27,411 nucleotides of DNA from a virus. This document shows, in pieces, positions 9,322 to 10,596 of this stretch; within the stretch, counting starts at the first letter, position 1; every line of letters begins with the position of its first letter. The stretch covers positions 1-27,411 of the IMG/VR virus record IMGVR_UViG_3300035701_000226. One strand, written 5' to 3'. Made by a program: the position numbers and the translations under genes. The notes under the pieces were generated by a model. The model saw only the letters and a program-made list of their open reading frames with translations, ran no database searches and was not told the origin of the DNA.

Positions 9322-10596
9322 ATGCCCAGCCCTCGCGCGCCGGTCCACCTCCAGGAAGTAGCCTCCCTCGATTCCCTCAAGCCAGCCCCGAACAACCCCC
9401 GCCGGCACGACCTCGGGGCCATCATCGAGTCGCTGAAGGCGAACGGGTTCGTCGACGACATCGTCGTGGACCGGCGCACGGGCTGCATCCTCGGCGGCCA
9501 CGGCCGCTGGGAGGCGCTGAAGGCGATGCAGAAGGCGGGCGACGCCCCGCCGGACCGCGTGAGCGTGAAGGGCGGGAAGTGGTACGTGCCGGTCAATCGC
9601 GAGGTCGCGAGCCGGAACGACACGCACGCGGCCAGGATCGTGATCGTGCTCAACCGGGCGGCCGACCTGGCCGACAACGACGAGGCGGTCCTCGCGCAGA
9701 TGCTCGTGAAGATGGCGAAGGAGCACGAGCTGGCGGGGAGCGGGTACGACGGCGACGCGCTCGACGACCTGCTCAAGGACCTCGGGGCGCAGGACACGAG
9801 CAAGGACGACCTGGTACCGGAGCCGCCGAAGAAGGCGATCTCGAAGCCGGGGGACCTCTGGACGCTTGGCCAGCACCGGATCCTGTGCGGCGACAGCACG
9901 AAGCCCCGCGACGTCGCGCGCCTGATGGAGAGCGATCGCGCGATGCTGCTGGCAACGGATCCGCCCTACGGTGTCGCCTACGGGGATGAGACGGGCTCGA
10001 AGAAGCACGGGAAGATCGCGAACGATGAGAACAACGGCCCGAAGCTGCAGGCGTTCCTCGAGGACTGCTTCCGCGCGGCGGTCCGCGAGGCGATCGCGCC
10101 GAACGCCGCCTGGTATCTGTGGCACGCCCAGCTCACGCAGGGATTTTTCGCAGCAGCAGCAGCAGCAGCAGCAGCAGCAGCAGTGTTGATCTCGAGACAG
10201 ATTATCTGGGTGAAGCCCGCGCTCCTGCTCGGTCACGGCGACTACCACTGGAAGCACGAGCTGTGCTTCTACGGCTGGGTGCAGGGGCACCGGCCCCCGT
10301 TCTACGGGAAGCGGAACCAGACGACCGTGTGGGAGATGGGCAACGAGACACTGCCGAAGGACCGCAAGCACCCCACGCAGAAACCCGTCGCCCTGTGGGA
10401 CGCGCCGATTCACAACCACACGAAGCCGGGCGAGGTCCTGTATGAGCCCTTCGCCGGATCCGGCACGCAGATCATCGCAGCGGAGAAGACGGGCCGGCGC
10501 TGCCGGGCCATTGAGATCGAGCCTCGGTACGTGGACGTCGCCGTCGAGAGGTGGCAGATATTCGCCCACGGCAAGGCCACTAGGCAGTCGCGGTAG
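9322..10596 (+). CDS. ParB-like domain fused to beta-class DNA methyltransferase
   Basis: A 424-residue two-domain protein. Residues about 17-110 match the ParB/Srx-type N-terminal fold, with PNNPRRHDLGAI and GGHGRWEAL (58-66), the ParB box-like segment. The methyltransferase follows: a CGDS segment near 190, catalytic DPPYG (D213-G217), W-x-K region (IIWVKP near 293), and motif I EPFAGSGTQ (375-383). The order IV before I marks the beta class; DPPY favours N6-adenine. Family knowledge: ParB-methylase fusions are frequent in phages and mobile elements. The ParB-like part might bind DNA or a nucleotide. Eleven GCA codons (A277-A287) form a poly-alanine helix in the catalytic domain. No ribosome site is clear before ATG 9322. 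It sits directly ahead of the terminase genes. Confidence 0.9.
   Translation: MPSPRAPVHLQEVASLDSLKPAPNNPRRHDLGAIIESLKANGFVDDIVVDRRTGCILGGHGRWEALKAMQKAGDAPPDRVSVKGGKWYVPVNREVASRNDTHAARIVIVLNRAADLADNDEAVLAQMLVKMAKEHELAGSGYDGDALDDLLKDLGAQDTSKDDLVPEPPKKAISKPGDLWTLGQHRILCGDSTKPRDVARLMESDRAMLLATDPPYGVAYGDETGSKKHGKIANDENNGPKLQAFLEDCFRAAVREAIAPNAAWYLWHAQLTQGFFAAAAAAAAAAAVLISRQIIWVKPALLLGHGDYHWKHELCFYGWVQGHRPPFYGKRNQTTVWEMGNETLPKDRKHPTQKPVALWDAPIHNHTKPGEVLYEPFAGSGTQIIAAEKTGRRCRAIEIEPRYVDVAVERWQIFAHGKATRQSR
10150..10182 (+). repeat. (GCA)11 trinucleotide microsatellite encoding poly-alanine
   Basis: Eleven perfect GCA codons in a row, also readable as (CAG)11 at 10151-10183. They lie between the DPPYG and IIWVKP parts of the ParB-methyltransferase. 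Length change would add or remove alanines without a frameshift. All eleven codons end in A although the genome favours G/C-ending codons, so repeat expansion rather than amino-acid selection is the likely origin. Confidence 0.95.

Follow-up and report, generated by a model that had tools for sequence, protein, structure and literature searches.

Phase-variable DNA methyltransferases of bacteria are classically controlled by repeat slippage that shifts the reading frame or changes a promoter. A different arrangement has been described for EcoR124I and EcoR124II, in which a change in the copy number of the TAEL repeat in HsdS shifts the register of a helix by roughly one turn and alters the spacing of the recognised DNA (PMC3874165). 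Bacterial precedents exist both for phase variation driven by repeats and, in a Type I system, for an in-frame repeat dial in a modification enzyme. No relevant account of poly-alanine tracts or microsatellites in methyltransferases of phages emerged from a search of the open-access literature. The dimer of M1.HpyAVI is held by R86, D93 and E96 (PMC5173035), and CcrM binds DNA as a dimer whose second subunit contacts the non-target strand via helix alphaD and the C-terminal domain, with Asp113 and His134 in the dimer interface (PMC6787082).

The window, which denotes the whole stretch of DNA analysed, is a single virus record of 27,411 bases with no further contig. Positions 10150-10182 read exactly (GCA)11, followed by GTG, in frame within the open reading frame 9322-10596 (Table 1), which places A277-A287 between the DPPYG (residues 213-217) and IIWVKP (residues 294-299) motifs. 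The encoded protein matches PF01555 (E 2e-15; 57.8 bits against a cut-off of 26.7) and the DNA methyltransferase family phrog_498 (E 7e-116), while ParB-like phrogs match its residues 12-170. In the family profile, positions 3-156 match ParB structures and the remainder matches CcrM and M1.HpyAVI. With its ParB-like N-terminus joined to a methyltransferase, the protein is a phage fusion of the phrog_498 type, and the profile match, the common fold and the placement of DPPY before the FxGxG SAM motif mark it as a beta-class N6/N4 DNA methyltransferase; the position of PFAGSG, C-terminal to DPPYG, is the beta-class motif order. Fold comparison by VIA-align gave Z scores of 23.6 for CcrM (6pbd), 23.3 for M.BceJIV (9c3u) and 21.0 for M1.HpyAVI (5hek), the overlap with CcrM extending over 227 residues at an rmsd of 2.8.

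Table 1. Coordinates of the features in the window
Feature	Position	Strand	Basis or remark
Neighbouring N6_N4 methyltransferase	8068..9312	+	PF01555 E 7e-49; GTG start assumed; G9 run at 8352-8360; outside the repeat system
ParB-like/N6_N4 beta-class DNA methyltransferase, 424 aa	9322..10596	+	PF01555, phrog_498, family profile
Motif IV DPPYG, residues 213-217	9958..9972	+	D213 and P215 invariant in a 90-sequence alignment
Methyltransferase core replaced in L001	9970..10416	+	blastn blocks 9561-9969 and 10417-16610; protein alignment
(GCA)11 tract	10150..10182	+	encodes A277-A287; overlaps helix 273-285 of the AlphaFold model
IIWVKP, residues 294-299, strand after the tract helix	10201..10218	+	W296 and K298 invariant in the 90-sequence alignment; model strand 288-302
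SAM-binding motif I PFAGSG, residues 376-381	10447..10464	+	F377, G379, S380 and G381 nearly invariant in the 90-sequence alignment
Terminase small subunit, next downstream gene	10606..11028	+	phrog_309 E 2e-16
Terminase large subunit	11000..12616	+	phrog_38 E 1.5e-61

Considering the composition of the phage, chance codon choice was ruled out as the source of the tract. Among the 739 alanine codons elsewhere in the window, GCG accounts for 51.6%, GCC for 38.6%, GCA for 5.5% and GCT for 4.3%. Given this usage, independent choice would yield eleven GCA codons with a probability of about 1.5e-14, and eleven identical alanine codons of any kind with a probability of 7e-4. The original prediction had taken such a run, in a phage favouring G/C-ending codons, as a sign of repeat expansion. 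In addition, (GCA)11 is the top-scoring tandem repeat of the window, where no other perfect repeat is as long. As a separate observation, an antisense open frame of 993 codons (window 7588-10569, minus strand) reads the tract as poly-cysteine. It seems to arise from high GC content, and the antisense and other-frame open reading frames over the tract (poly-cysteine, poly-serine) were regarded as mechanical artefacts.

It had further been proposed that two adjacent modification genes each carry a repeat. The G9 run of the neighbouring methyltransferase does exist, as the CCG-GGG-GGG-GGC of a PGGG motif; however, the closest homologues of that enzyme retain PGGG and lack the poly-G tract, so that G9 was rejected as a second conserved repeat. 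On the other side of the gene, the terminase large subunit lies downstream of the methyltransferase in all 10 of the 10 relatives tested. Terminases of different families were seen to follow the ParB-methyltransferase in the window (9322-12616) and in L034, L041, L063, L073, L103, L113, L126, L133, L137 and L144.

Comparison of homologues for alanine count, as the original prediction had suggested, revealed that copy number differs among relatives. A first protein search returned (GCA)8 (L002), (GCC)11 (L003) and one relative without the tract (L001). A second search, which may carry ascertainment bias as it used the alanine-containing pattern AAAAAAAA, added (GCC)9, (GCC)8GCG and (GCT)9, along with a second subfamily bearing (GCTGCC)n and (GCAGCC)n. 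To check for this bias, relatives were re-fetched by alignments of the post-tract region only, with no alanine tract in the query; the query for the second family (A3) was still made from repeat-bearing members, and one further sequence set had been chosen for alanine. Among the best 80 viral matches to the post-tract query, most contain an alanine run of 5-11 units made of one codon, which differs between phages (GCT, GCC, GCA or GCG), and the remainder are mostly repeat-free relatives.

Outside the single-codon group, the second subfamily (WYAD...AQIIWxKN) carries hexanucleotide units encoding Ala-Ala, Thr-Ala or Ala-Gly, and at this helix single members of other subfamilies bear (ATG)6, (GCT)6 or a 12-mer in duplicate. 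Gly-Ala hexamer repeats and GCAACT repeats also occur at the tract helix among relatives. Individual cases include L107, L111, L120 and L122 of the 6-bp clade, in which Thr-Ala or Ala-Gly hexanucleotide repeats replace Ala-Ala upstream of AQIIW, and L144, a member of another methyltransferase subfamily, where an (ATG)6 poly-methionine run occupies the same helix position (near 2947-2967).

Among 50,697 phage records, no relative exceeded 60% identity, and none of the five named cultured-phage relatives examined showed the repeat, the reading of one of them (L442) being confined to the part after the start of the helix; no laboratory phage carrying the tract was found in these records or among the five. 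In bacterial and archaeal genomes, the tract was present in two of the 27 inspected among the best 80 matches, both of them MAG contigs. The alanine tract is therefore not peculiar to one phage: it characterises an entire family of phage methyltransferases in which the repeat unit has been repeatedly replaced, a scope that the original prediction had missed, and (GCA)11 is one case of an in-frame hypermutable microsatellite at a fixed site in phage ParB/beta-class methyltransferases.

The purity of these tracts is high. Of 111 distinct tracts, 105 are pure or deviate by just one end codon, comprising 59 with one codon throughout, 28 with one codon plus a differing end codon and 18 pure 6-bp repeats, which leaves six others. 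Copy number ranges from 5 to 13. All units are of 3 or 6 bp, apart from one 12-bp repeat (L248), and all are in frame. The repeats are also strongly localised: a scan of 170 methyltransferase open reading frames for perfect tandem repeats of 15 nt or more found 100 within the 75 nt that precede the RQIIW anchor and a single one in the remaining 204 kb. Outside this site, fetched phage DNA totalling 2.1 Mb after removal of redundancy holds about five 3- or 6-bp repeats of similar size; three rows that this second scan listed as lying elsewhere (L293, L123 and L144) belong to the tract helix. Two repeats noticed apart from the helix are a CAGGAG hexanucleotide in nearly eight copies (L384, 3280-3326), unrelated to it, and a (GAA)7 elsewhere in a tract-bearing phage contig (L018, 1708-1729).

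Parsimony on a protein tree that excluded the tract gave at least 35 unit changes among single-codon tracts and at least 62 copy-number changes, counts that stem from one tree with many weakly supported branches and are not proven events. In comparisons between phages, conserved codons flanking the tract are near saturation at the third base, and no conserved DNA motif was seen beside the tract at these positions. Since the flanking third bases are nearly random and the codons within the tract of any one phage are identical, the pattern is the signature of slippage-driven homogenisation rather than of codon bias or a conserved DNA motif.

Length also varies between very similar phages. A single GCC unit is the only difference between L264 and L307 across 7,727 bp, and L304 and L348, compared over 7,270 bp, differ by seven substitutions and three GCA units (GCA10 vs GCA7). 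Further pairs have nine and seven GCA units (L284 and L334) or seven and six GCT units (L308 and L321). In total, four clusters of near-identical contigs are polymorphic in tract length, and six other near-identical clusters with SNPs have a constant copy number. Far from being constant in all relatives, the outcome that would have refuted the original prediction by its own terms, copy number thus varies even between near-identical phages, and the relatives support the earlier claim of slippage expansion with an in-frame change of a helix segment. Pure, length-polymorphic repeats of the kind found at hypermutable simple-sequence contingency loci are accordingly present in relatives of the window gene, the window phage itself having no near-identical tract-bearing copy. 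The descriptive part of the account, namely the repeat, its purity, the turnover of units, the length variants and the helix position by homology, is held with high confidence.

The structural setting of the tract was considered with AlphaFold models. In the model of the window protein (pLDDT 88.9), strands 258-268 and 288-302 flank the tract, and a 13-residue helix (273-285) starts six residues after the tryptophan; in the natural A7 relative L348, a helix of the same length starts three residues after it. This comparison, based on two predictions for different proteins with a regional pLDDT of 77-93, suggests that added alanines would leave helix length unchanged and instead place the conserved LTQGFF segment in a different register. 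By sequence profile, the tract helix aligns with residues 84-100 of M1.HpyAVI (5hek), a stretch that contains R86, D93 and E96. The alanine helix is thus probably used for dimerisation and DNA contact, and helix alphaD of CcrM, judging from the order of elements, may be its counterpart.

These observations can be assembled into a candidate mechanism. Replication slippage would gain or lose whole units of 3 bp, or of 6 bp in the second clade, so that the frame is kept and the codons stay identical. Each gain would lengthen, and each loss shorten, the segment that links the WYLWHA and IIWVKP strands. Copy number might thereby set the helix register and tune dimer geometry and DNA contact, with possible changes in target preference or activity. 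A phage population would then hold ready-made modification variants, and selection might maintain this adjustability. Taken as a whole, a slippage-driven, in-frame adjustable helix that tunes the dimer geometry or DNA recognition of the methyltransferase, a proposal drawn from sequence patterns and with the TAEL repeat of EcoR124 HsdS as its precedent, has about an even chance of being correct. A more specific version is rather unlikely: the alanine count of the dimer helix would alter the methylated sequence or its spacing and create new patterns that evade host restriction with the frame intact in many environmental phages. A different kind of change was observed in the close relative L001, whose methyltransferase core is strongly diverged and repeat-free, with about 92% nucleotide identity to the window on both sides. 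This exchange is a recombinational swap, and wholesale replacement of the core is consistent with diversifying pressure on modification specificity.

The main rival, which is possible but somewhat doubtful, is that the microsatellite is passive: the helix would need just some alanines (about 5-13), slippage would be tolerated and would homogenise the codons, and no adaptive role would follow. Every tandem repeat this long undergoes slippage, which by itself makes it pure. Codon purity alone does not prove selection for adjustability, because slippage keeps codons pure once a poly-alanine helix tolerates changes in length. The many lengths tolerated within one clade and the six near-identical clusters with no length change also agree with a passive repeat. 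However, of 71 repeat-free relatives, 68 share a spacing of 27 residues between the WH/WY tryptophan and the IIW tryptophan, which indicates that segment length is normally constrained; this spacing spans 26-31 residues in the 3-bp clade and takes values of only 23, 25, 27 or 29 in the 6-bp clade. A passive repeat also fits poorly with the methionine, Thr-Ala and Gly-Ala repeats found at the same helix, and with the persistence of repeats over deep divergence instead of decay to mixed codons.

Alternatively, the tract may act as an activity switch in which only some helix registers are active, such that adding or removing a unit would raise or lower methylation, in frame and with the target unchanged. 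The predicted shift in register relative to LTQGFF with copy number would suit such a switch, as would the movement of the 6-bp clade by two-residue steps only. However, all copy numbers from 5 to 11 occur with no gaps, contrary to what a strict on/off register predicts, and this explanation is considered improbable.

It is very improbable that the GCN repeat serves at the DNA level, as a target or structure in itself, for example the methylation site of the enzyme or a packaging element near the terminase. The gene does adjoin the terminase genes, and overlapping GCNGC is found in all alanine repeats, but the (ATG)6 and GCAACT repeats do not have this pattern, and the near-saturation of third bases in flanking conserved codons leaves no conserved motif around the tract. 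Although every tract-bearing record is metagenome-derived, an assembly or sequencing artefact is hardly credible, given the recurrence of tracts at one position, with four different codons and in-frame lengths, in roughly a hundred records of many samples, the agreement of several separately assembled identical contigs, and tracts of 15-39 bp that are far shorter than usual short reads.

If tract length does alter target or activity, as the adjustable-helix reading would have it, phages would possess a fast route to diversify their DNA modification against restriction. The question is testable, as natural variants differ by just one or three codons. The open-access papers searched contained no description of a site-specific microsatellite in a phage single-chain methyltransferase, maintained in about a hundred uncultivated phages and with its codon unit repeatedly replaced.

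Compared to classical phase-variable bacterial methyltransferases, the phage genes share a pure simple sequence repeat that is length-polymorphic between near-identical genomes. However, they are phage-encoded, and their units are multiples of three without exception, so that the frame is kept and they are not frameshifting phase-variable mod genes. With CcrM, M.BceJIV and M1.HpyAVI, the window protein has in common the fold and the order of DPPY before FxGSG, and its tract segment is homologous to the dimer helix of M1.HpyAVI; in the latter, however, the corresponding helix is of ordinary mixed sequence with no tandem repeat. The resemblance to the TAEL repeat of EcoR124 HsdS lies in an in-frame tandem repeat within a helical dimerisation or spacer element, putative in the phage enzyme, of a DNA-modification protein. 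In EcoR124, a bacterial specificity subunit carries two or three copies of a 12-bp unit that encodes Thr-Ala-Glu-Leu. The window gene, on the other hand, does not encode an HsdS spacer of this type but a single methyltransferase with a ParB-like N-terminus and the tract inside its catalytic fold, and the phage tracts, made up of 3- or 6-bp units encoding 5-13 residues in the catalytic domain of a single-chain enzyme, undergo whole-unit turnover across many phages.
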